From NCBI GenBank assembly GCA_023511795.1, contig JAIMAU010000005.1:62001-126000 (forward strand): a DNA stretch of 64,000 nt. Direction: 5' to 3'. The first letter of the stretch is position 1, and each line of letters begins with the position of its first letter. The DNA comes from Armatimonadota bacterium. Lineage in GTDB: Bacteria; Armatimonadota; UBA5829; DTJY01. The notes under the pieces are model-generated. The model did no database searches and was not told where the DNA came from. It worked only from the letters and a program-made list of their open reading frames with translations. Positions 49,377 through 64,000 of the stretch are shown in pieces. A program made the position numbers and the translations under genes.

Positions 49377-50012
49377 TTATACTTGCCGTGTCCTCAGCCA
49401 TTTCATCCAATTTTCTAAACCATCGCCTGAGCTACAAGATATCTTTATTAACCTACGGCCGATGTTTGCAACACTCTCCTCAAACTTGACAAGGTCAAAA
49501 GACACATAGGGAGAAATGTCAATCTTGTTCAAAACCACTACTGAAGCCGAACTAAAGATCGCTGGATACTTGAGAACCTTATCATCACCTTCAGGAATAC
49601 TGCACACTACTACTCGTGCTGTTTCCCCTAGGTCGAAGCTTACAGGGCAAACAAGATTGCCTACGTTCTCAATTATCAAAACATCAAGCGAAGTAACATC
49701 AATTCTGTCCAATGCCTTTCGCACCATGCTTGCATCAAGGTGACACGCTCCACCTGTGTTAATTTGCACAACTGGCACACCGTGCTTAGCAATTCGCTCA
49801 GCATCGAGAGAAGTCGCAAGGTCTCCCTCAACGACACCAATTTTCAAGTCTCCTGCCCGAGATAGGGTTTGCTCTATTAAACTTGTCTTTCCGGCGCCCG
49901 GTGAACCCATTATGTTAACAACAAAAAGCCCGAATTTTTCGAATTCGGCCCTCATTTCACTAGCAAGCAGGTCATTCGCTGCCAGAACTTTTTGCACTAC
50001 TGGAATCTGCAT
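49377..50012 (-). CDS. hypB: Hydrogenase nickel-incorporation GTPase HypB
   Basis: This 211-residue GTPase delivers nickel to the hydrogenase large subunit with HypA. The P-loop GSPGAGKT lies at residues 36-43, followed by VVEGDLATSLDAERI, TGGACHLDASMV with the metal-binding Cys-His, and ENVGNLVCP. NKID is the guanine-specificity motif. The N-terminal His-rich stretch or CXXCGC motif found in some HypB is absent; it begins MQIPVVQKVLAANDLLA. It overlaps hypA by 41 bases. No hypC-F genes are visible in the window, so those must lie elsewhere. It is the last gene of the hydrogenase operon. Confidence 0.95.
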   Translation of the reverse strand: MQIPVVQKVLAANDLLASEMRAEFEKFGLFVVNIMGSPGAGKTSLIEQTLSRAGDLKIGVVEGDLATSLDAERIAKHGVPVVQINTGGACHLDASMVRKALDRIDVTSLDVLIIENVGNLVCPVSFDLGETARVVVCSIPEGDDKVLKYPAIFSSASVVVLNKIDISPYVSFDLVKFEESVANIGRRLIKISCSSGDGLENWMKWLRTRQV

Positions 50013-50352
50013 TTTCTACCTCGATTGAATCAACAAACAATTCCCTTCCGGTGATTAGCTTTCCTTTGTGGCTAGAACAGCGAGGGCATGCGAACACGCT
50101 TACAAGAGGAATGTACTCATGACCACAATTTTCGCAAGCATATGCTACTGGCACTTGCTCAACGGCAACTTCTGCACCTTCTGCCAGCGTACCTTTTGCC
50201 AAAATTCCAAAGTAAAACCTCAAGCAGTCGGGCTCGACAGTTGACCATTCGCCTACCTTCAGGGAAACCTTAGTTACTCGAGATGCACGCGCTTTCGCAG
50301 CTTCTTTCAGCACAATAGAAAGTACGTTTTGGGTGATTCCTAACTCATGCAT
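49972..50352 (-). CDS. hypA: Hydrogenase maturation nickel metallochaperone HypA
   Basis: This 126-residue HypA starts MHELGITQNVL with the Ni-binding His2-Glu3 and has a zinc domain with Cys73/Cys76 (ACENCGHEY) and Cys89/Cys92 (ACPRCSS). The reading frame is open upstream, but the Met-His-Glu start is diagnostic, so ATG 50352 was chosen. The C-terminus is a Ser-rich tail (ENADSSSAKSSGSE) that overlaps hypB in another frame. It lies 39 bases after the antiporter-like subunit gene and serves the group 4 hydrogenase. Confidence 0.94.
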   Translation of the reverse strand: MHELGITQNVLSIVLKEAAKARASRVTKVSLKVGEWSTVEPDCLRFYFGILAKGTLAEGAEVAVEQVPVAYACENCGHEYIPLVSVFACPRCSSHKGKLITGRELFVDSIEVENADSSSAKSSGSE

Positions 50353-50391
50353 TAACAATATACTACCGCATGGAAGTTCAAAACTCAATCT

Positions 50392-51987
50392 TTAACATTT
50401 CTTTCGAACTTCTGTCATGTGGTTTCCCGACCTTCGGGTTTTCAGCAACCGCCACTTTTTATTAGATGTGTTGATTGTTTGGACATAAGATGCGGCTTCT
50501 TTAATTGGCGGGTAGACTGCCTTTGGGTAAAGCCCAACCCCCAAGCAAAGGATAGCAAGAATCAACATTGAAATCACAACAGTTAGAGGTGCTTCTCGAA
50601 CAGATGTATCAGCAACTGCTTCGCTTTCTTTACCCCAGAATATGTTTTTAGCAGCTTTCAAAAGCACCACAAGCGTTACCAAGCTAGCAGCTATACCAAA
50701 TCCAACAGCCCACCAGTTACCTGCATCTGCGCCAGCGACGAACAGCGCAAGCTTGCTATGGAAACCATTAAGAGGAGGAATACCAGAAACCGCCAGCGCT
50801 CCTATAAAGAAGCAAAAGCTTGTGATAGGCATTTTCTTTGCGAGGCCACCTAGCTGGGAAATATTTCGCATCCCAGTAGAGTAGATTACCGCACCCGCCG
50901 CAAGGAAAAGCAAAGCCTTTGCAATAGCGTGATTTACCATGTGAAAAAGTCCAGCATATATACCCAACTGCGTACCTATTCCAAATCCCATAAGTATATA
51001 GCCTATTTGGCTGACGGATGAATATGCAAGCATCCGCTTTAAGTCATCCTGTGCTAGAGCCATGAGATCTCCGATTACAAGCGTGAATACACCAAGTCCA
51101 AGTGCAAACATCGCGACAGGCGAGAAACTAGGATAGAAAATTGTAACTGTTCTCACAAGAGCATACATCGCGACCTTAATCATCACGCCCGAAAGAAGCG
51201 CCGAAACTGGTGTTGGCGCTTCTGCATGAGCATCTGGCAACCATGGATGAAATGGCGCAACTCCGGCTTTCGTTCCAAACCCAATAATCAGAAAAGCCGA
51301 GGCAAGAACTATTGTTGTAATGGGAAAGCTGCTGGCATGTAGTTTTAGTTCAGATATTAGCAATCCCTTGGCTCCCCCTACCCCAGGCAGGTTTGAGCCG
51401 GTGGCATATAAAAGCACGCAACCAAAAAGCGAGAAAGTTATGCCTACGGTAAGCAGCATTAGATACTTGTAACCAGCTTCCAGCGCTCGCTTATCCCAAT
51501 AAAATGCAACAAGAAGGCCACTTGCAATAGTGCTTGCTTCAACTGCCACATATAACATAATTATATTGTTAGAGAGGCATGCCCAGATCATGGTAGAAAT
51601 AAAAAGCATTAGCCAGCCGTAAAAAGCTGTTAATCTACCACTGGTGGTTGTATGCGGAAGCCCACCTTCTTTTACTTGATGCCGCATGTATTTAAGGGAA
51701 TAAACAACTGCCACAAAGCTAACAAGCGAGACCATGCTTATTAGCAAAGCGCTCAAAGAATCAGCATATAGCTGTGTTTCAAAGGAAGTTAAAATCTCGC
51801 CATGTAGTGTTTTATATCCAATTATCACGGACAATATCAAAGCAAAGGTAACGCCTGCAAAAGCCAGGGTCTCACGCAACCATGAAACAAATCTTCCGAA
51901 AGCAAATATTAGGAGCGCCGTTGCAGTCGGAACAAAAATTACTAACGCTGGCAATACCGAAGCCGTTTCTACAGCCGAATGATTCAT
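50392..51987 (-). CDS. hyfF: HyfF-like antiporter-type hydrogenase membrane subunit
   Basis: This 531-residue membrane protein of the NuoL/M/N-MrpA/D superfamily has about 14 helices, and its length fits HyfF of hydrogenase-4. Seen are NIIMLYVAVEASTIASGLLV with the TM5 Glu, FGTKAGVAPFHPWLPDAHAEAP, LMALAQDDLKRMLAYSSVSQIGY and GLFHMVNHAIAKALLFLAAGA with the conserved Lys and His. These are the proton-channel residues of complex I-type pumps. It would move H+ or Na+ when electrons pass to the hydrogenase. It lies nine bases after the HyfE-like gene. Confidence 0.9.
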   Translation of the reverse strand: MNHSAVETASVLPALVIFVPTATALLIFAFGRFVSWLRETLAFAGVTFALILSVIIGYKTLHGEILTSFETQLYADSLSALLISMVSLVSFVAVVYSLKYMRHQVKEGGLPHTTTSGRLTAFYGWLMLFISTMIWACLSNNIIMLYVAVEASTIASGLLVAFYWDKRALEAGYKYLMLLTVGITFSLFGCVLLYATGSNLPGVGGAKGLLISELKLHASSFPITTIVLASAFLIIGFGTKAGVAPFHPWLPDAHAEAPTPVSALLSGVMIKVAMYALVRTVTIFYPSFSPVAMFALGLGVFTLVIGDLMALAQDDLKRMLAYSSVSQIGYILMGFGIGTQLGIYAGLFHMVNHAIAKALLFLAAGAVIYSTGMRNISQLGGLAKKMPITSFCFFIGALAVSGIPPLNGFHSKLALFVAGADAGNWWAVGFGIAASLVTLVVLLKAAKNIFWGKESEAVADTSVREAPLTVVISMLILAILCLGVGLYPKAVYPPIKEAASYVQTINTSNKKWRLLKTRRSGNHMTEVRKKC

Positions 51988-51996
51988 ACCGCACCT

Positions 51997-52662
51997 CTAC
52001 CAGTGTAACTCTGAGAGTTTGAATGTATCTGTCGTGCCGAATTTCGACCGGATTCCGCCGATGATGTAAAGCAATAAGTAGACTGTCACTACTACTTCGG
52101 TGGCGATACCGGCAAGCGCCGTTTCGCGAATCGTAGGCGCAAGGCTAACCAAGCTCAGATGCACGCCATTCTCCAAAAGACAAAGGCCAATAACCGTCTT
52201 TATGGCATCACGCCTAGTCAAGATGGCATATAGTCCCAGCACAAATACAGTGAATGCTACAGCAAGGTTGGTATTGGCAATCTCCGCCAATTCCTGGGTC
52301 TGCGCTACAAACAAACTTGCATGCATATGAGTAAGTTTGTACATGACAGCGAGCAGCGCAATCAGTATAACCGCTGAAGGGCCAAAGCCAATGAGGGGTT
52401 TTGTTTCCTGCTCATGACCAGCGGTTGCATTCCAAAGAAACCATGGCACTAGTACCGCCTTTGTAATAAGTGCAGTAACCGCCCAGTAAAGCAATGCCGA
52501 GTTCTGAGTAGAATATGCAAAAAGTAGTCCACATATCAGCAATGCCTGTGCTAGATATGCAACGGTAGAATGGCGTAAATTCCTAGCTTCAACAGCTGCA
52601 AAGCTTGTTAGAATCATTAGCAAGCTTAGTGTATGAATTAATTCGGGACTAATGTGTGTCAT
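51997..52662 (-). CDS. hyfE: HyfE-like hydrogenase membrane subunit (NuoK-like domain)
   Basis: This 221-residue membrane protein with six to seven helices begins ISPELIHTLSLLMILTSFAAVEARNLR and has a NuoK-like second half: FVLGLYAILTRRDAIKTVIGLCLLENGVHLSLV. The Glu in LLENG corresponds to a proton-path acid in NuoK and HyfE. The length matches HyfE (about 216). It forms part of the membrane domain between the HyfC- and HyfF-like subunits, and the three genes are separated by only three and nine bases. Confidence 0.9.
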   Translation of the reverse strand: MTHISPELIHTLSLLMILTSFAAVEARNLRHSTVAYLAQALLICGLLFAYSTQNSALLYWAVTALITKAVLVPWFLWNATAGHEQETKPLIGFGPSAVILIALLAVMYKLTHMHASLFVAQTQELAEIANTNLAVAFTVFVLGLYAILTRRDAIKTVIGLCLLENGVHLSLVSLAPTIRETALAGIATEVVVTVYLLLYIIGGIRSKFGTTDTFKLSELHW

Positions 52663-52665
52663 TGT

Positions 52666-53568
52666 CTACACTCCAATTACCGCAAATGCTAGTGCTGCAA
52701 AAGCCACAAACAATACCCTAGCCATATAGTTCATTAATTGGTCAATCCTCAATCTAGGATTTACCACATCAATTACAGCAACCAGAATCAGAAGTATGAG
52801 GACTTTTACCAAGCCAATTAAGAAAGCAAGGATGTTTGACCCGACGACAGGCCAAGGAACAAACACTGATACAAAAAGAAACGAAAAAACGAGTTGTCGA
52901 ACGTAAAAAACTAATTTATATAAAGCAAGTCTTGGTCCGCTATATTCCATAAACGGACCTTCTACGATTTCTTGTTCGGCTTCAACTATGTCAAACGGCA
53001 ATCTTCCAAGATTTGCCTGCAATGCTAGAAAGAAAGCAATTCCTGCAAATATAAGAGAAACAGTAGGACCATTTATCGAGTTCCATCCTACCATATCAGA
53101 TATTAGAAGACTTTTGGCTTTGAAAGCTGCTGTTAGAAGCGATGCAATTACAATTGGCTCAACGGTAAGAAGCATCATCATTTCTCGGCTAGCGCCTTCA
53201 TAGGAAAAAGGATTACCAGAGGCAAATGCTCCCAACATAATCGCCACGGCAGCCAGTGAGACTATATATACCCATACGATTATGTCGCCTGCGACGCCGA
53301 GTGGGGGACCAAATCCCATGGGTGTTAAAGCTGCAACCGTAAGAAAAGCACCTAGCGCCACCACAGGGGCGATGCGGAATAGCAATCCATCGTTAGGTCT
53401 TAAATCTTCCTTGCCCAATAGCTTAAAAATATCAATGTATGGCTGAGTAATTGGAGGTCCTTTCCTTGAGTGAACTACCGCCTTTAGTTTCCTCATTACC
53501 CCTTCGAACAAAGGCGCCAACAAAAGAATTAAAATAACATTAACTAAAACTCCACCGACAACCGTCAT
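52666..53568 (-). CDS. hyfC: HyfC/NuoH-like hydrogenase membrane subunit
   Basis: This 300-residue membrane protein of the NuoH/EchB/HyfC family has eight helices. SRKGPPITQPYIDIFKLLGKEDL is the conserved Q-site loop after helix 1, and FDIVEAEQEIVEGPFMEYSG is the E-rich loop typical of NuoH (family F-D-x-x-E-A-E-x-E-L-V-x-G-F-x-x-E-Y-S-G). It connects the hydrogenase arm to the membrane pump modules. It lies 17 bases after the HyfB-like gene and three bases before the HyfE-like gene. Confidence 0.93.
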   Translation of the reverse strand: MTVVGGVLVNVILILLLAPLFEGVMRKLKAVVHSRKGPPITQPYIDIFKLLGKEDLRPNDGLLFRIAPVVALGAFLTVAALTPMGFGPPLGVAGDIIVWVYIVSLAAVAIMLGAFASGNPFSYEGASREMMMLLTVEPIVIASLLTAAFKAKSLLISDMVGWNSINGPTVSLIFAGIAFFLALQANLGRLPFDIVEAEQEIVEGPFMEYSGPRLALYKLVFYVRQLVFSFLFVSVFVPWPVVGSNILAFLIGLVKVLILLILVAVIDVVNPRLRIDQLMNYMARVLFVAFAALAFAVIGV

Positions 53569-53585: not shown

Positions 53586-55619
53586 TTAGCTTCTTATTAA
53601 TATGAACAGTATTGCGAAAGCTATGACTGCCCCTATTAGCTGCCAGATCATGTAGACATGGGGCACTCCGCTGTGTGTCCGGCTGACACGTTCAGTAAAG
53701 CGTGCCCCTACTTTCAGAATCGGACTGTAGAGCCAGCTATCAAGGTCAAGCACTTTTCTGAAACCCTGCAGCGCTGAGATTTTGGGTATGCTGATGCTTG
53801 GATATACTTTTGCAAATGCTGTTTTAAATGGTAAGCAAAAACCATGCGCCCGAAACCTAACTTCTTCAGGCTCGTGTTCCTCTCCACCATACCAATTTAC
53901 TGTCGAGCGAGATTGGGCACTTCCCAAACGTAGAATAACCAATGATGCCAGGGAACAAAATATCAAGGCAATTAGTGCGTAAATGGGGTTCCATAACCCC
54001 GCAACCCCGTTGCCAAAATTCAATGCAATTCCAGAAATGTTCGTACCAAAAAGGGTGGAGAACACCGGTACGTAATTATCCCCAAAGATGTCCTGCGCAG
54101 CTCGGTACAAAACAATCAGCGGTAGTATTGGAGCTATACCCAAGATAACGCAAACCACAGCTAAAGCAACTTGAGGGACTCGCATGGCAACTGGCACCTC
54201 TCCTCGGGCGCGGCGTGTGCATTCTGCAGGCTGGCCCAGGAAAATTGCGCCCAGCAACTTCATAAACGAGGCTAAAGTTGCAATTGAGATGAACATAGCA
54301 ATAAGCCCAAGGGCAAGGAATAATGGCATACGAATTCCACCTTGGAACGCAGACTGGTAAATTAACCATTTACTTGCAAAACCACTGAAAGGAGGAATTC
54401 CAGCTATCGAAAGCGAAGCAACGACGGCGGCCCCCATTGTTATAGGCATAATTGTGCCCAAACCACCCATTCTGTTTAAATCTCGCATGCCTGTAGCATA
54501 TTCTGCTGCACCCACGTTTAAAAACAGAAGCGACTTATAGCATGCATGGTTTACAACGTGGTACAACCCAGCTATTAGCGCAAGAACAGCCAAAATGGAT
54601 TTTGTTTGAATGAAATAGAAGCCTGTGCCTATTCCAAGCAACATATAGCCAATTTGACCAATTATGTGGAAAGAAAGAACTCTCTTTGAATCATCCTCCC
54701 TCAATGCAGTAAGCGTTCCAACAAATATAGAGATTGCCCCAAATATAGCAATCACTCCACCCCAGATCGTTAACAATCCAGAGTTGTTAAAGAATTCTAG
54801 AAAAGCTCTAACTATGCCGTAAATTCCTATTTTGGTCATACTGCCAGCAAACGCCGCCGATGCAGGACTTGGCGCAGCAGGATAAGCCTGAGGCAACCAA
54901 CCGCCTAGCGGGAACATGCCTGCTTTTGTTGCAAACCCAAGCATGAAAAGTGCCATAAGGATATGTACCAAGGCTCGGTTATTTTTAGCCATTATCCCAA
55001 TTGCTCTACTTATGTCTTCGAAAGCAAACGATCCAGACTCTCTGTAGATGACCAACATTGCAACCAAAATACACGCTGCCGCAACATGCGTAACTACAAA
55101 GTATGTCCAGGCAGCTTTGACCTTTTCTTCATTCTCCCGTTCAAACCACACCAGCGCCCAGGAAGCCAGGGTCATTATCTCCCAGAAGATAAAGAAGAAA
55201 AAGAGATCAGAGATTGTCACTACTCCAACTATCGCCAGAGCCAATAATAGCGCAAAAGGATAGTATCTAGCAGGGCTTCGCTCGCTGTAAACTTTTGCCA
55301 TAAATTCCACAGCGTATAGCAAGGTTAGCAAACCAACAAATGGAACCACCAGCAGAAACACCGCGCTAAGACTATCAATGTGGAAGGTCAGCGAAGCACC
55401 AATAAGATTGAGGCTCAAAATAGGCTGGATATCCTTCTGCCCAGATGCAAGGCAACGCAATGCCAAAACCCAAAGTGCCAGCGTCGCCACGCTCATAAAA
55501 AATACTGCCATGTAGCCCGACTTACGCCAATTACCCCGATACGCAATTAAAACAAGGAATCCAATAAAAAGCGAGCCACTGGCTATAAACAAAAGATTTC
55601 TTGACACCAAATCCATCAT
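53586..55619 (-). CDS. hyfB: HyfB-like antiporter-type hydrogenase subunit
   Basis: This 677-residue NuoL-type subunit has about 16 helices; HyfB of E. coli is of similar length (about 672). Seen are FFFFIFWEIMTLASWALVWFE with the TM5 Glu, GFATKAGMFPLGGWLPQAYPAAPSPASA, TLREDDSKRVLSFHIIGQIGYML, and GLYHVVNHACYKSLLFLNVGA with the conserved Lys. The last helix is VIAFAILFILIRS, after an amphipathic stretch that would fit the connecting helix. It pumps ions in the complex. It lies 18 bases downstream of another antiporter-like subunit gene. Confidence 0.9.
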   Translation of the reverse strand: MMDLVSRNLLFIASGSLFIGFLVLIAYRGNWRKSGYMAVFFMSVATLALWVLALRCLASGQKDIQPILSLNLIGASLTFHIDSLSAVFLLVVPFVGLLTLLYAVEFMAKVYSERSPARYYPFALLLALAIVGVVTISDLFFFFIFWEIMTLASWALVWFERENEEKVKAAWTYFVVTHVAAACILVAMLVIYRESGSFAFEDISRAIGIMAKNNRALVHILMALFMLGFATKAGMFPLGGWLPQAYPAAPSPASAAFAGSMTKIGIYGIVRAFLEFFNNSGLLTIWGGVIAIFGAISIFVGTLTALREDDSKRVLSFHIIGQIGYMLLGIGTGFYFIQTKSILAVLALIAGLYHVVNHACYKSLLFLNVGAAEYATGMRDLNRMGGLGTIMPITMGAAVVASLSIAGIPPFSGFASKWLIYQSAFQGGIRMPLFLALGLIAMFISIATLASFMKLLGAIFLGQPAECTRRARGEVPVAMRVPQVALAVVCVILGIAPILPLIVLYRAAQDIFGDNYVPVFSTLFGTNISGIALNFGNGVAGLWNPIYALIALIFCSLASLVILRLGSAQSRSTVNWYGGEEHEPEEVRFRAHGFCLPFKTAFAKVYPSISIPKISALQGFRKVLDLDSWLYSPILKVGARFTERVSRTHSGVPHVYMIWQLIGAVIAFAILFILIRS

Positions 55620-55637: not shown

Positions 55638-57143
55638 CTATTTCGGCATAATGCCCTGAACCAATGGGATGCCTACAATCGGTGCAGCAATACAAGCAAG
55701 AATTAGCAAAATGAGAATCAAAGACATAGTGTATGGCAAATTAACGTTACTCGCCGAAACCACTTGAACATTTTCAGGCTCATGGTCGGTTTCTGATTTC
55801 AGCCTAACACCTAGCCGCATAGGCTTTCCAAAAAAGATCTTTTGCCCAACCCATAAAAACCAAGCGAATGTTACTAAGCTTTCCGCTAGAACTAAAATCA
55901 ATACAATTGGCCCAAAGACTCCTTGTACTTGCAAAGCACCCGCAAGAACATAAAATTTACTCCAAAAGCATGCAAGCGGTGGAAATCCTGTTAAAGCTAG
56001 TGCGCCCACAAAAAATGCAACCGCAACCAACGGCATCGCTTGAGATAGTCCTGATAGCCTCGCCAAGCTTCGAGTTCCAGTAGCATAGGCTATTGCGCCT
56101 ACCGTTAAAAACAAGGTCGTCTTCGCTACGGAGTGCATTAGGATATGGAGTGCTGCCCCTTGGAATGCAATAATTGCACCTAACGAACCAAGGCCCAGAC
56201 CGAGCAAAATATAACCTAATTGGGCTATTGTCGAATATGCGAGGAGTCGCTTTAGGTCGTCTTGGAAGAAATACATATACAAAGCCGCAAACATTGTTAC
56301 AAGTGCAGCTATCGAAACAAGAAGCCCCATACCTAATGGCAGCCCCCAGCCTGCTGAAAGAAGTCTTGCGATTAGAAAAACTCCCGCCTTAACCATGGCG
56401 GCAGCGTGCAAATATGCGCTTATCGGCGTTGGAGCTGCCATTGCATCAGGTAGCCACGTGTGAAATGGCAATTGTGCGCTTTTTGCCCATGCAGCTATCA
56501 AGAAGAATGCAAACACTCCGGCACGCACACCTATAGGCATTTCTCCTAGGGCAGAGAATTTCATCGACCCTGTTGCGCTGAAAATCCAAACCAACCCTGT
56601 AATAAAAAAGAGGCCGCCGATTGATGTCATTACCAGCGCCTTCATTCCTGCTTTTAAGCTTTCAGTATTGTCATAAAATGATATCAGAGCCCATGAGGTA
56701 AGAGTCGTCATTTCCCAAAAAATTAGTAATTGAAGGAGCGTAGGTGAAACGGCAATCCCCACCATTGAGCCAACGAATACCAGTAGCCAAAAATAATACC
56801 TTGCATACCCACCCCCTAAGGGATGATCTGCATTTTCTGGTGACAAATATCCCGCAGAATAAATTGCTATAATTGCCCCAATTATCGTCGAGGCTAGCAA
56901 CATAATGAATGCCAGCGGGTCAAACTGGTAACCAAAAAGCCCCTTTGCCGACTCTCCAAGCCAGGGCATGCTACCAAATTGATATGTTTCATTCGGCATA
57001 TATACTGCCACTAAAACCGCAGTAATAGCCGTGAGCGCGGTTGCTAATATTGCAGTTGGTTTGGATGCCCGGTCCCTTACAGCAAGACATGCTACCGCGC
57101 CTAAAAACGGAATTGCGACTACCGCAACTGCCAAGGGTTGCAT
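55638..57143 (-). CDS. Antiporter-like (NuoM/HyfD-type) hydrogenase subunit
   Basis: This 501-residue NuoM/N-type membrane subunit has about 14 helices. LQLLIFWEMTTLTSWALISFYD includes the TM5 Glu, AWAKSAQLPFHTWLPDAMAAPTPIS the TM7 Lys, YFFQDDLKRLLAYSTIAQLGYIL follows, and ALHILMHSVAKTTLFLTVGA has the TM12 Lys. Length suggests HyfD (about 479) or MrpD. The gene order differs from E. coli hyf, where hyfD lies between C and E. Together with the subunits at 53586 and 50392 it makes three pump modules. It starts 18 bases after the small-subunit gene. Confidence 0.88.
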   Translation of the reverse strand: MQPLAVAVVAIPFLGAVACLAVRDRASKPTAILATALTAITAVLVAVYMPNETYQFGSMPWLGESAKGLFGYQFDPLAFIMLLASTIIGAIIAIYSAGYLSPENADHPLGGGYARYYFWLLVFVGSMVGIAVSPTLLQLLIFWEMTTLTSWALISFYDNTESLKAGMKALVMTSIGGLFFITGLVWIFSATGSMKFSALGEMPIGVRAGVFAFFLIAAWAKSAQLPFHTWLPDAMAAPTPISAYLHAAAMVKAGVFLIARLLSAGWGLPLGMGLLVSIAALVTMFAALYMYFFQDDLKRLLAYSTIAQLGYILLGLGLGSLGAIIAFQGAALHILMHSVAKTTLFLTVGAIAYATGTRSLARLSGLSQAMPLVAVAFFVGALALTGFPPLACFWSKFYVLAGALQVQGVFGPIVLILVLAESLVTFAWFLWVGQKIFFGKPMRLGVRLKSETDHEPENVQVVSASNVNLPYTMSLILILLILACIAAPIVGIPLVQGIMPK

Positions 57144-57161: not shown

Positions 57162-57683
57162 CTACTTGCGGGTTACGACAGGTGTATCCTTCCAAGCTTC
57201 AAGATACTCATCTAGGTTGAATCCTGGCGGAAGATGGCTCTCATGCTGTGCACTCACTTTCTTGGGCACTAGACCCAAAGCCAGCGCCGCGCCATAAACT
57301 ATTGCTTCTGGCCTTGGAGGACATCCTGGGATGTACATGTGCACTGGCACAACCTTGTCTGCCCCACCGAGAACGTTATATGTATCAAACCAAATGTTTC
57401 CTCCAACAGCGCATGAGCCAACGGCTATTATGACCTTTGGATCTGGTGTTGCGTCATAGAGACGACGAAGTGCAGGTGCTACTTGCCTGCTAACCGAACC
57501 TGAAATCACTAAAGCATCTGCGTGACGCGGGCTTCCAACCAACTTCATGCCAAAACGTTCGACGTCGTAGTATGGCGTTAGGACATCAATGACCTCGATA
57601 TCGCAGCCATTGCATGCACCGCAGTTGGTGTGGAACAACCAAAGCGATTTTGGAAACATCTTCTTGCAAAGTCCTGCAATCAT
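57162..57683 (-). CDS. hyfI: [NiFe]-hydrogenase small subunit (HyfI/NuoB-like)
   Basis: This 173-residue protein binds the proximal [4Fe-4S] cluster next to the Ni-Fe site. Its ligands are Cys21 and Cys24 (in NCGACNGCD), Cys91 (in AVGSCAVGG) and Cys121 (in IPGCPPRPEA). This is the NuoB/HycG/HyfI pattern of group 4 hydrogenases and complex I. ISGSVSRQVAPAL and PRPEAIVYGAALALG are typical. It carries an additional Cys27 with no known ligand role. Its ATG overlaps the stop of the ferredoxin gene by four bases (ATGA), so translation is coupled. Confidence 0.95.
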   Translation of the reverse strand: MIAGLCKKMFPKSLWLFHTNCGACNGCDIEVIDVLTPYYDVERFGMKLVGSPRHADALVISGSVSRQVAPALRRLYDATPDPKVIIAVGSCAVGGNIWFDTYNVLGGADKVVPVHMYIPGCPPRPEAIVYGAALALGLVPKKVSAQHESHLPPGFNLDEYLEAWKDTPVVTRK

Positions 57684-58210
57684 ATTTTTTCCTCGCTTTC
57701 ACGCACAAGCGACATCCGCTGGACGAACTCAATCGGTGGTTTGACAGGAAATATGCCATGCTTGTTTTCCTCACCAGGACCTCTTCCTCGCCACCGCTTG
57801 CTTGGAAACTTATCAATTGCGTTCTCGGTCTCAAAGCACCGCCCACACCGTTGACAGGTTGACATCCATATTGTCATATCAGACCTCAAGTCGCTTTTGT
57901 CAGGTGTAGCCGTTTCAAATTCGTCAGTTGGCCAAATTGCTTTTTCAGGACAAACTTCATAACATCTTGCACATTGAATACACCTGTCGAGATAGAATGT
58001 AATCTTTGCAATCTCTCCTACATCCTCGATAACAATGCATCTTGGGGGACAAACATTTGCACATCCGCCGCATCCGATGCATTTTCGCGCATCAAATTCG
58101 ATTTTCCCGCGGAACTTTGGCGGTACTTTTACCGGCTCAAAAGGATATTTAAGCGTGACCCGGCCTGCCCCAAAGCATATCACTGCTTCCTTTAGCTTGG
58201 CTTTGAACAT
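57680..58210 (-). CDS. hyfH: HyfH/NuoI-like two-cluster ferredoxin subunit
   Basis: This 176-residue peripheral subunit has two [4Fe-4S] motifs: Cys44-47-50-54 (CIGCGGCANVCP) and Cys77-80-83-87 (CIQCARCYEVCP). These transfer electrons to the small subunit. A third cysteine set, Cys119-122-125 (CQRCGRC), lies in the C-terminal tail with no fourth partner, a possible extra metal site. The N-terminal AGRVTLKYPFEPVKVPPKFRGKI matches HyfH/EchF. It lies between the large- and small-subunit genes and ends in the ATGA overlap. Confidence 0.92.
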   Translation of the reverse strand: MFKAKLKEAVICFGAGRVTLKYPFEPVKVPPKFRGKIEFDARKCIGCGGCANVCPPRCIVIEDVGEIAKITFYLDRCIQCARCYEVCPEKAIWPTDEFETATPDKSDLRSDMTIWMSTCQRCGRCFETENAIDKFPSKRWRGRGPGEENKHGIFPVKPPIEFVQRMSLVRESEEKI

Positions 58211-58216
58211 TTGCCG

Positions 58217-59899
58217 TTACTCCTTTTCCCAGGTCTTTCGCTTGCACATTTCCTCAAGCTCTTCCCTGGTGTAAATGCGAATTTCTTTTGTATTTACATC
58301 AAGGGTTTCTACGCGCTCGGTGCATGAGAAACAAGGGTCATAGCTTCCAATGCTTATTGGCACATCTGCCAACTCTAAGCCCATGATCATCACACCAACT
58401 GCCTGAAGATTCGGATATGTAGGCGCTCTCACTCGCCACCTATAGGGTCTGTTTTCATCACCTGTAAGAACATAGTGATGAGATTCGCCTCTTGCAGCCT
58501 CAACCGAGCAAAGCCCTATTCGTCCAGACGGAAGCTCATGGTCAACTTTTGCCATCACAGGACCGCCTGGCATATCGTCTAAAATCTTGCGCACCAGGCG
58601 GATTGATTCGAAAAGCTCAAGGACCCTTACCATGGTCCTTGCCCACGAATCGCATCCGTCCTGAACTTGTATCTGCACATCTAAGTATTCATATGCAGCA
58701 TAAGGATGATCAACTCTACAGTCTATAGGAACGTTTGATCCCCTAGCTACTGGGCCTACTACCCCAATGGCGCGAGCATCTTCTTCGGTGAGTATTCCAA
58801 CGCCTTTGAGACGAGCCATCAAGGTTGTATCGATTGAAATTGCGTCAACAACAGCTTTTAATTCTTGCTCAACTTTATCCATAACTCGTCTGATGTCCTC
58901 AGCAGCTGTCTCATCAATGTCAAAGCGCACGCCACCAATCAAATTCGATGAGTAATGCTTGCGGTTACCAGTTACGCGTTCCATCAGCCACATAACAGGC
59001 TCACGGATTCGCCAAGCCTGCATTAATATCGTATCGAAGCCAATAATATGACCAGCAAGCCCAACCCAAAGCAAGTGACTATGTATGCGCTCTAGTTCTA
59101 GAAGAAGCGAGCGAATATATTTCGCCCTTATAGGAGTTTCAATCCCGCATGCATCCTCAACCGCCTGGGCATATGCACATGAATGGACTTGCCCGCAGAT
59201 ACCACATATTTGCTGTGCGACAAATGGAATTTGATTGTAATTGAGCTCACTATCACCTAGCTTCTCTACCGCCCGATGGTTGTAGAAACCACGATAATCA
59301 GACCCAACTACACGCTCGCCATCAAGAAATAGCCTGAAGTAGGCTGGCTCTTCCAATGTTGGGTAGAACGGGCCAAGGGGCACAACGGTTGTTCCTTCGG
59401 GCGCCGGCTTCCTAGGCGGCATATTTTGCTCTTGAGGGAAAATCTCATTATAAGCAAATTCTCGCCTTAAGGGATGAACTCCCTGTGGGAAGTCGTCTGG
59501 TAGAATAAGCCTTCGCGGGTCGGGATGCCCAACAGGCACTATGCCCATCACATCAAATGCTTCGCGTTCTGCCCAGCCTGCCGCAGGAATATCAGGGGTT
59601 ACGGAAGTTATCTTCATATCATCGGGAGGAACAGCCGACTGGAGCACAAGAAATTTCTTTTGTTTATCAAAAGCAAGAATGTAGGATATCCGATAGTCTC
59701 CAGTCTTTTGCCGCATATCAGTCGCAACAGTAATAACAAACCTAGCACCAAGTTGCTTGACAGCATGTTTCACTACTGCTGGCAATACTTCGCGAGGAAT
59801 CGTTGCTACATATTGATTCCGAACATGCTCTTGAAGATCTTGAAGCATGTCAGGAAAATGTGTCCATAGTTCCATTAGAAATTCTTGCTCTTTTACCAT
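58217..59899 (-). CDS. hyfG: Group 4 [NiFe]-hydrogenase large subunit, NuoC-NuoD fusion
   Basis: This 560-residue catalytic subunit is a fusion of a NuoC-like domain (about 1-150: WAEREAFDVMGI, LILPDDFPQGVHPLRREF) and the hydrogenase domain. The Ni-Fe ligands are all present: Cys232 and Cys235 in ICGICGQVHS, and Cys523 and Cys526 in DPCFSCTER. LGDSELNYNQIPFVAQQ and ELERIHSHLLWVGLAGH are family landmarks. Intact ligands mean true hydrogenase activity, unlike complex I NuoD. Only 34 residues follow Cys526, and whether the end is proteolytically processed is not clear from sequence. It lies 12 bases after the protease gene. Confidence 0.96.
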   Translation of the reverse strand: MVKEQEFLMELWTHFPDMLQDLQEHVRNQYVATIPREVLPAVVKHAVKQLGARFVITVATDMRQKTGDYRISYILAFDKQKKFLVLQSAVPPDDMKITSVTPDIPAAGWAEREAFDVMGIVPVGHPDPRRLILPDDFPQGVHPLRREFAYNEIFPQEQNMPPRKPAPEGTTVVPLGPFYPTLEEPAYFRLFLDGERVVGSDYRGFYNHRAVEKLGDSELNYNQIPFVAQQICGICGQVHSCAYAQAVEDACGIETPIRAKYIRSLLLELERIHSHLLWVGLAGHIIGFDTILMQAWRIREPVMWLMERVTGNRKHYSSNLIGGVRFDIDETAAEDIRRVMDKVEQELKAVVDAISIDTTLMARLKGVGILTEEDARAIGVVGPVARGSNVPIDCRVDHPYAAYEYLDVQIQVQDGCDSWARTMVRVLELFESIRLVRKILDDMPGGPVMAKVDHELPSGRIGLCSVEAARGESHHYVLTGDENRPYRWRVRAPTYPNLQAVGVMIMGLELADVPISIGSYDPCFSCTERVETLDVNTKEIRIYTREELEEMCKRKTWEKE

Positions 59900-59911: not shown

Positions 59912-60382
59912 TCAGCACTTGCATGCCAATATGCACTGCGAAAGCATATTGAAAATATTAATTGCGGAGCGCTTTACATCTTCGCTCATCGGTGCTCCAT
60001 ATCGAACACAAAAAGGTTGGATTGCTAGCAGACGGCATTTACAACCCAGCTCGCTTTCTAAATATTCCATTGTGAGTTTCAACGGCGCCCTATGGGTATC
60101 TAATCCTGAAGCGCTCAGCTCAGTAGAATGCAAAAGCGCAATATCACCAGGGGAACCACTGAAATCAACTGCATCAATAAATAGTACATTATCAGGCGCC
60201 ATCTCACGGATGCGCCACGTATCGAGTTCCGGCGCATTGCCACTTTCTATAACTTGCACGATGCCGCTTTCAGCAAGCATTCTTGCAACTAATATGCCTA
60301 CGCCGTCATCCCCATGACCTAACTGTCCAACGCCTACTACAACAGTTCTGCCAGATAATCCCGACGCCAGCTCTTCGATCAT
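59912..60382 (-). CDS. Hydrogenase maturation protease (HycI/HyaD type)
   Basis: This 156-residue endopeptidase cleaves the C-terminal extension of the hydrogenase large subunit after nickel insertion. VVVGVGQLGHGDDGVGILVARML contains the G-N-x-x-x-x-D-D-G-x-G-type motif with the Ni-sensing Asp, and VLFIDAVDFSGSPGDIALL holds the second Asp. LLAIQPFCVRYGAPMSEDV is typical of HycI, with Gln in place of the usual His. It is translated just before the large subunit. It ends in QCILACKC, a small Cys-rich tail. Confidence 0.9.
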   Translation of the reverse strand: MIEELASGLSGRTVVVGVGQLGHGDDGVGILVARMLAESGIVQVIESGNAPELDTWRIREMAPDNVLFIDAVDFSGSPGDIALLHSTELSASGLDTHRAPLKLTMEYLESELGCKCRLLAIQPFCVRYGAPMSEDVKRSAINIFNMLSQCILACKC

Positions 60383-60388
60383 TTTTGC

Positions 60389-61273
60389 CTACAATTTGAG
60401 CTCAAATAGTTCTTTCATCTGAGCATAAGTAAAAACAGGACCCTCTGTGCAGAGATAAACATGATTTATACAACAGTGGCCGCACTTCCCAACTCCGCAC
60501 TTCATATAGCGCTCTTGACTGGTAACAATTCTGTCTTCCGAGAATCCCATTTTTAGAAGCTCTAAAGTCACAAACTTAATCATTATAGGTGGGCCGCAGG
60601 TCAAGGCAACAGTATTCTCGCCATCAACTTTCATTTTATCAAAAAGGGTTGTAACGACGCCCACATTGCCCTTCCAGTTTTCATCTCCTACATCCACTGT
60701 CTCAAGGACTTGCATGTCATCCCTTTTCGCCCAAGCATCCAGGTCATATTTGTAATTTCTATCTGCGGGAGTACGAGCGCCGTATAGCAATAGGAAATTG
60801 CCGTATTCTTTCCTATTAGCTAGTATTTGCAAAATTGCAGGTCGAAGTGGCGCAAGACCACAGCCACCACTAACAATCAGGACATCCTTTCCTTTCATAT
60901 CCTCAAGTGGCCAACAATTGCCAAATGGCCCACGAATTCCCACTTTCTCGCCTTTTTTAAGAGCATGCATTGCCCTAGTTACCTTTCCGCGCTCGACCAC
61001 TGTAAGTTCGAAAAATGACCTCTCGTTAGGGTCGGAAGCAAATCCAATTGGGGCTTCGCCTGCACCAAAAACGGTTACTTCGACAAATTGGCCTGGCTCC
61101 CACTCAAAAGATTTGGCATATTCTTTATCTTCAAAAGCTAGGCGGAAGGTTTTTGTGTCGGGCGTCTCATCAATGATTTCTTGTACTATGGCAATCATTG
61201 GCACATATAGATTAGCACTTGGTTGATCTGTTACGCCCCACATTCTCCTAGGCTTTGCTGGAGTTAGAACCAT
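60389..61273 (-). CDS. HydG-like FAD/NAD(P)-binding electron-transfer subunit
   Basis: This 294-residue flavoprotein of the ferredoxin-NADP reductase fold resembles the gamma subunit (HydG) of sulfhydrogenases and anaerobic sulfite reductase B. EWEPGQFVEVTVFGAGEAPIGFAS is the FAD-binding strand, VLIVSGGCGLAPLRPAIL the NAD(P)-binding loop, and ALTCGPPIMIK the catalytic Cys-Gly-Pro-Pro motif. The C-terminal MKCGVGKCGHCCINHVYLC binds a [2Fe-2S] cluster. It probably exchanges electrons with NADH or NADPH. GAGGTG stands five bases before the ATG; it follows the HydB-like gene with a two-base gap. Confidence 0.92.
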   Translation of the reverse strand: MVLTPAKPRRMWGVTDQPSANLYVPMIAIVQEIIDETPDTKTFRLAFEDKEYAKSFEWEPGQFVEVTVFGAGEAPIGFASDPNERSFFELTVVERGKVTRAMHALKKGEKVGIRGPFGNCWPLEDMKGKDVLIVSGGCGLAPLRPAILQILANRKEYGNFLLLYGARTPADRNYKYDLDAWAKRDDMQVLETVDVGDENWKGNVGVVTTLFDKMKVDGENTVALTCGPPIMIKFVTLELLKMGFSEDRIVTSQERYMKCGVGKCGHCCINHVYLCTEGPVFTYAQMKELFELKL

Positions 61274-61275
61274 TT

Positions 61276-62355
61276 TTACACCTCGGCAGCCTTTTCTTTG
61301 GGCGGCAAGAATTCATGCATTTCTCGCCTGATGCGCTTCACTACATCCGGTAATCCAAGCTTAGTCAGGCATGCGGTTATGCAACGGCCGCAACCAACAC
61401 AACCATGCCGTCCATCGCGAATTATGTATTGGTATGACGTCTTATGGTAAAACCTTCGAGCCACTCGACTTCCAAATGTTGGCCTGGGATTGTGTCCACT
61501 TGCTTCTCTAGTAAAACCAGCGTACTGGCAGGAATCCCAGGACCGACATCTAGTAAAGGTCCCGTCGGGTTCTTCGCGGTCATCCACTGTAAAGCAAGTA
61601 CACACTGGACAAAGGTTCGTACAAGCACCACATCTAAAACAAGTTGAACCCAAATCCTCCCAGATTTTCGCCGGGACCTCATCAGCGGAGATAAAGTTTA
61701 TTGCTTTTGCCAAATAAGACACTGTTTGGAAGCGGGAGTCGGCTTGAAGTTCAATTTGGCGCCGTGCTTCGATATCAGCAGGCGTCGCCGGCAAAAGCAT
61801 ATATGCCCTTGGTTCGGTTGCCTTTTCTCCTTTGTCGGATCCTACCTCATAAAGAAAACGATCACCAAGGTCAGTCAATTGGACATCAAAACCTGATTCG
61901 AGCCATGGACCGGAATCACAACATATACAGAAGCATTCCTCTTTGGGCGGCGTATTACACACAAGATTGAAGAGGACTGTGTTGTTCAGACGTTCCTTAT
62001 AGTATGGGTCTACTATAGGATAGGAAAAGAAGTTCTCTTGAAACCTAATTGCCGCTACATCGCACGACCTGATTGCTACGATTGCCTGGGGCTGTGGATT
62101 ACATGTAGGCTCAATTTTAATCTGCTCGTCGCAAGTATAGCGGAACATGTCCTCAAAGTGTGGCAGTAAAAAGCGCTTTGGAGGATAAACTACATGGCCA
62201 TAGTCCCAATAAATGTCCTTATGTGATTGGATGACGTCGAAAGTTACATCACCTGCAAATAACTGCTTGGGACCAATAAGCTGCATTTCATTAGCCAAGC
62301 TTGCAAAAAAAGCTGGTACGTCAGATTTTTTTAAAATCGAGTAATCCTTTTTCAT
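61276..62355 (-). CDS. HydB-like [4Fe-4S] electron-transfer subunit
   Basis: This 359-residue iron-sulfur protein resembles sulfhydrogenase beta (HydB) and anaerobic sulfite reductase A. The first half (FAGDVTFDVIQSHKDIYWDY, AIVAIRSCDVAAIRFQENFF, CFCICCDSGPWLESGFDVQL) is the characteristic alpha/beta domain. The second half carries cluster motifs CFRCGACTNLCPVC and CVGCGRCITACLTKLG; the latter lacks the Pro usually following the last Cys. It passes electrons between the HydG-like flavoprotein and the hydrogenase or the molybdopterin subunit. It overlaps the upstream gene by four bases (ATGA). Confidence 0.9.
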   Translation of the reverse strand: MKKDYSILKKSDVPAFFASLANEMQLIGPKQLFAGDVTFDVIQSHKDIYWDYGHVVYPPKRFLLPHFEDMFRYTCDEQIKIEPTCNPQPQAIVAIRSCDVAAIRFQENFFSYPIVDPYYKERLNNTVLFNLVCNTPPKEECFCICCDSGPWLESGFDVQLTDLGDRFLYEVGSDKGEKATEPRAYMLLPATPADIEARRQIELQADSRFQTVSYLAKAINFISADEVPAKIWEDLGSTCFRCGACTNLCPVCTCFTVDDREEPDGTFTRCRSWDSCQYAGFTREASGHNPRPTFGSRVARRFYHKTSYQYIIRDGRHGCVGCGRCITACLTKLGLPDVVKRIRREMHEFLPPKEKAAEV

Positions 62356-64000
62356 CTCACCGCCTCAATCTTCACGGCATAAGCTTTGTATATCGGAACG
62401 CCCGAAACAGGATCGGTTTCATAAGAAGCCAACGCATTCGGCGAATCGCCTCCAAAAAAGTGAGGTACATGCACGCAACCTTTGGGTACTGATTCACTTA
62501 CCGACAGTACCCTTGTTAGGCTGCACGTTTCGGAAATGATTTTAATTGAACTTCCGGGTCTGATTCCAAGCCGTTCTGCATCAGCTTCGTTCATTTCGGC
62601 AAATGTCTCAGGGTATTCACGCGCCAGAACACTACTCCTTGCTGTCATTGTACCGGTCTGCTGATGGAAGTTAATTCGACTGGCAATTAAATAGAATGGA
62701 TATTCTCCCTCCGAATCCTTAGTAACAGTTTCTATCGGCGCCAACTTTGCTTCGTTTTCCGCAGGAACCCACGGCCGTCCCCATTCTTCATCTAGCTGGC
62801 GGAATGATTGCCCCTTGTAGATAGGAGCAGATGAAGAAATTTCAGCCATTACTTTCTCTGGGTCCGCTGACATTTTTGCACCAAGCGCAGCACCCAACAT
62901 GGCGATTATCTCGAGGTCAGACTTTGATTCTCCTATTCGCTCAAAAACCTTACGAACACGTTGAAGGCGGCGCTCAATGTTTGTAAACGTGCCATCTTTC
63001 TCCAAGAAGGAGCATGCAGGGAATACCACATCAGCAATGTTCGCCGTTTCTGTTAAATAAAGGTCAGAAACAGCAAGAAACCCCACCTTATTTAACGCTG
63101 AGAGTGTTGCCTGTGTGTTTGGCGCCGAGAGTGCAACGTTTTCGCCAAAGACCAATAATGCCTTCAGTGTACCCGACTCGCATGCTTTTAGCATCTCCAC
63201 GGCCGTCATCCCAGGTTCTGCAGGAAGCTGGCAGTTCCACACTAGTTCCCATACTTTTCTTGCAACAGGATCAGCTAGCTTCAGATAGCCCGGAAGCAGA
63301 TCATTCGTCAAGCCAACATCACATGCCCCTTGGGCGTTGTTTTGACCTCGGAGAGTCATAACTGACCCTCCCAAGAGTATGGCTATGTTCGCAAGTCCTT
63401 TCACAATTTCCGTAGAGTGAGGTTGCTGCAAAGCGCCAAGTCCAAACATCACGATAGTGGGAGGATTGCTTGCAACTAGTTCAACGGCCTTGTGTACCTC
63501 TGCCGGCTCAAGCCAGCACGAATATTTAAGCTGGCTTATTTCTATGCCTTCAAGAGAAGCACGAAGCTCTTCAAAGCCTGGAATCTCTGGAGCATTCTTC
63601 GTATAAAGCCTTTCGGCAATGATAATCTTTAGAAATGCTCTAATCCAAGCAAGGTCAGCTCCTGGTTTTGGATGGAGCCATAAACTAGTGTGTGGGGCAA
63701 GTCTGGTTTCCCGTGGGTCTATTGCCACTACCTTACACCCGTTGTCGGCTGCGTCCTCAATTCGCGAACCAACATGTGCAAGTTGTTCCATAACGTTTGA
63801 CCCGACGATTAGAATGGAGCCAGCCTTTGGAATGGCACTTAACTCTACCTGTGAACCAGGCGTTCCAGTCGTCTCAAGGAGCGCTGGTATTAAGGAGGCA
63901 TCATAAAAACGACATGCACCATCAATATTAGGGGTTCGTATTACACTCCGAGCAAACTTAACCAGCGAATAGCATTCCTCATTTGTGGTCTTCGCTGAGC
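62352..64000 (-). CDS. Formate dehydrogenase-like molybdopterin oxidoreductase, 5' partial
   Basis: The frame is open from its stop to the window edge, giving about 549 residues of a molybdopterin (FdhF/NuoG) protein. Landmarks are NEECYSLVKFARSVI, ILIVGSNVMEQLAH, GCKVVAIDPRETRLA, RGQNNAQGACDVG (63312-63350), DLYLTETANIADVVFPACSF and the C-terminal domain GTMTARSSVLAREYPE. The FDH-type RGQNN motif is kept, but the segment that normally holds the Mo-ligating Sec/Cys plus His reads CRFYDAS (63894-63914), with Tyr-Asp. It is not an in-frame TGA, so not selenocysteine. Formate as substrate is therefore doubtful. It heads the visible hydrogenase operon. Confidence 0.85.
   Translation of the reverse strand, partial: SAKTTNEECYSLVKFARSVIRTPNIDGACRFYDASLIPALLETTGTPGSQVELSAIPKAGSILIVGSNVMEQLAHVGSRIEDAADNGCKVVAIDPRETRLAPHTSLWLHPKPGADLAWIRAFLKIIIAERLYTKNAPEIPGFEELRASLEGIEISQLKYSCWLEPAEVHKAVELVASNPPTIVMFGLGALQQPHSTEIVKGLANIAILLGGSVMTLRGQNNAQGACDVGLTNDLLPGYLKLADPVARKVWELVWNCQLPAEPGMTAVEMLKACESGTLKALLVFGENVALSAPNTQATLSALNKVGFLAVSDLYLTETANIADVVFPACSFLEKDGTFTNIERRLQRVRKVFERIGESKSDLEIIAMLGAALGAKMSADPEKVMAEISSSAPIYKGQSFRQLDEEWGRPWVPAENEAKLAPIETVTKDSEGEYPFYLIASRINFHQQTGTMTARSSVLAREYPETFAEMNEADAERLGIRPGSSIKIISETCSLTRVLSVSESVPKGCVHVPHFFGGDSPNALASYETDPVSGVPIYKAYAVKIEAVR

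Follow-up and report, generated by a model that had tools for sequence, protein, structure and literature searches.

A formate dehydrogenase-like subunit without its metal-ligand pair at the head of an NAD(P)H diaphorase/[NiFe]-hydrogenase operon in Armatimonadota

It has long been asked why a dead molybdoenzyme (NuoG/NDUFS1) should be part of complex I, and Armatimonadota seemingly offer a separate case. In the window, i.e., the whole 64,000-nucleotide stretch of DNA analyzed, a formate dehydrogenase (FDH)-like gene with Tyr-Asp at the Sec/Cys-His site opens a hydrogenase operon (Table 1). Does its product still bind a metal-pterin cofactor, and if not, what does it do beside a hydrogenase?

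The former metal site

The FDH-like ORF spans 650 residues (source genome G000, contig C5; G000:C5:124352-126304) and is cut by the window edge; the [4Fe-4S] cysteines C8, C11, C15, and C43 as well as Lys45 lie outside the window. The full protein contains the Pfam domains Molybdop_Fe4S4, Molybdopterin, and Molydop_binding, its N-terminal [4Fe-4S] site reads CGFCSCGC...LCIKGW, and its closest relatives of solved structure are FDHs. The predicted structure of an ortholog (G012, pLDDT 91.7) is an intact, ordinary FDH fold, with TM values of 0.93–0.96 to the closest FDHs. The protein begins directly at the MopB Fe4S4 domain, the N-terminal [2Fe-2S]/[4Fe-4S] ferredoxin-like region of NuoG being absent, and the NuoG model scores its window fragment at 75 bits against a cut-off of 470 bits. 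An earlier note on this DNA had suggested that it may be a NuoG-like subunit rather than a formate oxidizer; the likeness is supported for a FDH-derived, Mo-free protein and does not extend to the N-terminal NuoG clusters.

Alignment of the complete protein with E. coli FdhF pairs Tyr134 with Sec140, Asp135 with His141, Arg319 with the catalytic Arg333, and Lys45 with Lys44, which bears out the same note on both the Tyr-Asp replacement and the intact R-G-Q-N-N segment. The YDAS motif is common to six genomes, namely the source and five orthologs (59–96% identity), the latter assigned to Armatimonadota (SKW42, A05DMB-I-24) by a genome-collection scan. In all six YD proteins Tyr replaces the Sec/Cys metal ligand, Asp replaces the catalytic His beside it, and R319 is retained, as are the N-terminal cluster cysteines and the relay Lys; the sister clade has lost R319. 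The ortholog in G003 (L008:1501-3456) reads RAQNN instead of RGQNN. Further changes in the FDH-like protein are the deletion of the G-N-x-G-x-P-x-x-G loop immediately preceding the Arg333 counterpart and the replacement of Thr579 (T579) of the C-terminal cofactor domain by Ala. Every YD protein retains 48 of the 69 positions that do not vary among 28 canonical FDHs, and another 14 are lost throughout the group. The canonical reference sets were chosen or checked for Sec/Cys-His and thus define this comparison rather than prove it; in open homology searches, the great majority of FDH matches carry Sec/Cys-His, the exceptions being other MopB types.

The loss of catalytic residues could also reflect a decaying gene or an assembly artifact, a reading that the orthologs refute and that can practically be dismissed. 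At identities as low as 59%, all six genomes retain YDAS, which excludes sequencing error or chance, the ORFs and operons are intact, and dN/dS values of 0.06–0.11 denote purifying selection on the FDH-like gene, a weaker constraint than that on HycE (0.004–0.011).

Cofactor genes and the loss of molybdenum

The FDH-like protein is the only MopB protein in five genomes that are 97–99% complete (G000, G001, G003, G012, and G019), in none of which model searches found fdhD, moaC, moaA, or moeA. The MopB search of the source genome found no second FDH. In control genomes, the models for MoaC, MoaA, and MoeA each matched 11/14 and that for FdhD 8/14. MoaC is present in G016, G017, and G024, which belong to the same class and have Sec/Cys FDHs, and in most genomes with canonical FDHs reached via other loci. 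Both molybdopterin and tungstopterin synthesis are impossible without MoaA and MoaC, and FDH or nitrate-reductase-like chemistry is therefore very unlikely. As the sole MopB protein of five near-complete genomes without these genes, the FDH-like protein almost certainly holds neither a Mo nor a W pterin and is not a formate oxidizer. Cofactor loss is established by genomics, and the missing pterin genes, together with scattered ligand losses in sister operons (see below), are the strongest new evidence for the original suggestion of a FDH that lost its Mo ligand.

Some observations count against a Mo-free relay. The YD clade keeps R319 and the 48 invariant FDH positions, a degree of conservation beyond what a purely structural relic would require, and one exceptional genome, G027 (67% complete, low-quality), carries a second MopB fragment as well as moaC, moeA, and fdhD beside its YD copy. 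The G027 contigs (L005/L135, L136, and L137) have similar G+C, and the additional genes may stem from contamination or from a real second FDH.

It is very improbable that the protein still binds Mo/W-bisPGD via Asp135 or Tyr134 and reduces CO2 to formate for the Wood-Ljungdahl genes, or has some other substrate. Such a role would suit a genome with no other FDH, in which the operon adjoins (as it does in G001) a Wood-Ljungdahl cluster with a complete-looking CODH/ACS, methyl-branch genes, and formate-THF ligase; R319 is kept, and the Asp135 column, which is that of FdhF His141 and lies one residue past the ligand column, is shared by NarG Asp223 in one alignment of very low identity. Against it stand the absence of moaA, moaC, moeA, and fdhD from the five near-complete genomes, the deleted loop, the lost T579, and the free variation of residues at the site among sister clades. 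Asp ligation of Mo as in nitrate reductases, which the note had also entertained, is not supported and was set aside because the cofactor cannot be made and the site is heterogeneous in the sister clades. Just past the window end (L002:4421-18214) lie genes for formate-THF ligase, MetF/MetV, CODH, AcsB, AcsC, AcsD, and AcsE, in a genome without a working FDH.

The operon and its sisters in the phylum

Table 1. Features of the FDH-like/hydrogenase locus in window coordinates, genes in operon order
Feature	Position	Strand	Evidence or remark
FDH-like subunit	62352..64000	(-)	Residues ~102-650 of 650 inside window; Molybdopterin/Molydop_binding/Fe4S4 Pfam domains
C-R-F-Y-D-A-S, Tyr134-Asp135 at Sec/Cys-His site	63894..63914	(-)	Translation; FdhF alignments; invariant in 6 orthologs
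R-G-Q-N-N, R319 = counterpart of catalytic Arg333	63336..63350	(-)	Translation, alignment
HydB/AsrA-like subunit, two 4Fe-4S motifs	61276..62355	(-)	NF040833 E 3e-45; P. furiosus SHI beta 9nez_B E 1.6e-38; 4-bp overlap with FDH-like gene
HydG/AsrB-like FAD, NAD(P), [2Fe-2S] diaphorase subunit	60389..61273	(-)	SHI gamma 9nez_C E 1e-57
HycI-type hydrogenase maturation protease	59912..60382	(-)	
HycE/HyfG-type large subunit (NuoC-NuoD fusion), Ni-ligand motifs CGIC + DPCFSC	58217..59899	(-)	7z0s_E E 9.7e-126
HyfH/NuoI-like 2x[4Fe-4S] subunit	57680..58210	(-)	
NuoB/HyfI-like small subunit (proximal cluster)	57162..57683	(-)	
HyfD antiporter-like membrane subunit	55638..57143	(-)	PRK06525 above cut-off
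HyfB antiporter-like membrane subunit	53586..55619	(-)	
HyfC/NuoH-like membrane subunit	52666..53568	(-)	
HyfE-like membrane subunit	51997..52662	(-)	Position and conservation in related operons
HyfF antiporter-like membrane subunit	50392..51987	(-)	
HypA nickel metallochaperone	49972..50388	(-)	
HypB nickel-insertion GTPase	49377..50012	(-)	

Of 14 genes, the FDH-like one comes first; those after it encode an NAD(P)H diaphorase of sulfhydrogenase type (HydB, HydG) and a membrane [NiFe]-hydrogenase of Hyd-4 type. A single operon is indicated by the 4-bp overlap of the FDH-like gene with hydB and the gap of 2 bp before hydG. The hydrogenase belongs to group 4 and is of Hyd-4/FHL type, as judged from its CGIC and DPCxxC Ni ligands, HycE-type large subunit (a match to E. 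coli HycE), antiporter-like membrane subunits, and maturation genes, and the "fully equipped" operon of the earlier description is borne out by this content. HydB and HydG score below the strict equivalog cut-offs and are identified by homology and by their FAD/NAD/[2Fe-2S] and 2x[4Fe-4S] motifs. On electron bifurcation, one option of the earlier note, the analysis gives evidence neither for nor against; HydG, which carries the flavin, is akin to the sulfhydrogenase gamma/DHOD reductase family. No counterpart of the HycB/HyfA polyferredoxin, a component of known formate hydrogenlyases, is present in the operon. As far as contigs extend, the six genomes keep the order FDH-like-HydB-HydG-HycI-HycE-HyfH-NuoB-HyfD-HyfB-HyfC-HyfE.

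A phylum-wide search with reading of gene neighborhoods yields ten further similar operons (G034, G048, G061, G071, G080, G096, G259, G261, G262, and G263), some truncated by contig ends. The ligand pair is missing from all ten FDH-like subunits, with HS, QC, YS, DA, EW, or QR in its place, and Arg333 is gone, yet the four cluster cysteines are retained. Several of these genomes encode a separate canonical FDH. G072 (L177) has the same hydrogenase with a Cys-His FDH and no detected HydBG, the arrangement of an ordinary formate hydrogenlyase.

A 100/98 branch in the larger, careful tree separates the canonical FDHs from both the YD and the other ligandless groups, which is compatible with, and not proof of, a single ligand loss; rooting and long branches would allow one or two losses. 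A direct sister relationship between the YD clade and the remaining ligandless ones was set aside, being weakly placed in a small quick tree. Hydrogenase large-subunit trees are mostly unresolved, and one is distorted by split NuoC/NuoD genes. Other proteins vary at the same site: two FDH-like subunits without Arg333 (L168:12613-14583 and L169:13576-15528) have Asp exactly in the Sec/Cys ligand column (RLDALP), and another Armatimonadota MopB type (L030:1501-3090 and L031:1501-3090) lacks the ligand pair (HRLEPNQ).

Probable role and relation to known systems

The FDH-like subunit is probably a Mo-free FDH descendant that serves as an iron-sulfur adaptor or relay in a [NiFe]-hydrogenase that is bound to the membrane and linked to NAD(P)H, a parallel to NuoG. 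Electrons would pass from NAD(P)H to the FAD and [2Fe-2S] cluster of HydG, to the [4Fe-4S] clusters of HydB, then probably through the [4Fe-4S] cluster of the FDH-like subunit to HyfH, the NuoB-like small subunit, and the NiFe site of the HycE-like subunit. In the simplest mechanism, electrons would be exchanged reversibly between NAD(P)H and H2, coupled to ion movement via HyfBCDEF, with the FDH-like protein as a Fe-S bridge or docking piece. Assembly of the complex, the direction of electron flow, ion pumping, and activity are all inferred. On general energetic grounds, the reaction from NAD(P)H to H2 leaves little energy for pumping, so the complex may draw on the ion gradient instead, or operate in the direction of NAD(P)H formation.

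The balance tilts slightly towards a FDH-like cluster on the electron path rather than parked beside it. Because the HycB/HyfA polyferredoxin is absent, the cluster may lie off this path, the situation of N7 in complex I, and an unlikely but by no means negligible reading makes the Mo-free subunit purely structural, its [4Fe-4S] cluster parked like N7 of NuoG while electrons run directly from HydG through HydB to HyfH. FDH-HydB-HydG enzymes (L038-L050) have their FDH on the donor side of HydB, so that its death would turn it into a side branch, and the FDH-like subunit diverges faster than HycE (about 30% between clades vs about 50–58%). A drifting relic, however, would hardly keep all four cluster cysteines in 16/16 ligandless proteins and the relay Lys in 14/16, with Arg in the other two. 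It is improbable that electrons come mainly from ferredoxin or another donor, with the FDH-like/HydBG part doing something else, for example sulfur or sulfite chemistry. HydB and HydG are also related to AsrA/AsrB and sulfhydrogenase, but the solved structure nearest to HydG is that of the SHI gamma subunit, from an NADPH-linked enzyme, gene order links the HydBG part to the hydrogenase, and no AsrC-like gene was found among the identified operon genes.

As an adaptor or relay, the subunit shares features with several known systems. Like NuoG/Nqo3/NDUFS1 of complex I, it is, judging from gene context and cofactor genes, a FDH-derived, Mo-free MopB subunit that accompanies an NAD(P)H flavoprotein within an enzyme of the complex I superfamily; unlike NuoG, it has no N-terminal ferredoxin-like clusters and is partnered by HydB/HydG instead of NuoE/NuoF. 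E. coli formate hydrogenlyase (FdhF-HycBCDEFG) and Hyd-4/FHL-2 have in common with it a FDH-fold subunit, a HycE/HyfG-type hydrogenase, Hyf membrane subunits, and the HycI protease, whereas the Armatimonadota operon has a dead FDH site, no HycB/HyfA, and an extra NAD(P)H diaphorase. Both diaphorase subunits recur in Pyrococcus furiosus soluble hydrogenase I (SHI, sulfhydrogenase), where the beta and gamma subunits carry electrons between NADPH and the hydrogenase; in contrast to the membrane operon, SHI is a soluble group 3b enzyme without a FDH-like subunit.

The three-gene FDH-HydB-HydG unit is common outside Armatimonadota with Cys-His. In FDHs of this kind from Dehalococcoidia, Methanothrix, and Omnitrophota, Cys/Sec-His is present, and no adjacent hydrogenase genes are seen in the stretches examined. 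Among the best matches in 193 Omnitrophota genomes there is no ligandless FDH; they comprise Cys-His FDHs, most of which neighbor HydB and HydG, and other MopB types. One Clostridia locus (L051) holds in a row Wood-Ljungdahl genes, a Cys-His FDH, HydB, a MobA-like gene, fdhD, and then a second HydB, HydG, a HycB-like ferredoxin, and a group 4 hydrogenase; here, Mo-cofactor genes adjoin a live FDH. A Syntrophaceae FDH-like protein (L077:17703-19667) has GLANGSS at the Mo site, lies near NuoI/HyfC-like genes, and is possibly another ligandless case.

QrcB is another Mo-free MopB protein; it, ActB, and FhcB have the MopB fold without Mo in common with the present subunit and differ in lineage and complex. 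That Mo-free MopB proteins exist is already known (Nqo3, ActB, FhcB; PMC10100899), as is a very similar operon in Saganbacteria RX5A, whose group 4 hydrogenase is accompanied by an unclassifiable molybdopterin oxidoreductase and asrA/asrB (PMC6349859). Likened by description rather than sequence, it is apparently of the same type, and the available part of that account does not report cofactor loss. New are the genomic evidence for cofactor loss and a contrast between live and dead FDHs that seems to track the diaphorase.

A FHL-type ancestor of complex I has been raised as a possibility for E. coli formate hydrogenlyase (PMC9474812). Tentatively, Armatimonadota may have re-enacted the origin of the NADH-input arm of complex I, a FHL-type complex having gained an NAD(P)H diaphorase before its FDH lost Mo and stayed on as a bridging Fe-S subunit. 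G072 (Cys-His FDH and hydrogenase, no diaphorase) and L051 (Cys-His FDH and HydB with a HydB-HydG-group-4 cluster) are possible surviving intermediates. With living relatives that have or lack the diaphorase and have or lack the Mo site, the order of events becomes testable.

Such operons can be misread when they are annotated automatically as FDH, anaerobic sulfite reductase, or partial complex I, with consequences for metabolic reconstructions of Armatimonadota. Sulfite reduction has been inferred from "Asr" in such MAGs (PMC10290634), and this assignment may rest on AsrA/AsrB-like genes of hydrogenase operons. In a Hebobacteria genome (L088:12079-13928 and L174:6260-8109), the AsrA/AsrB-like genes are part of such a hydrogenase operon.
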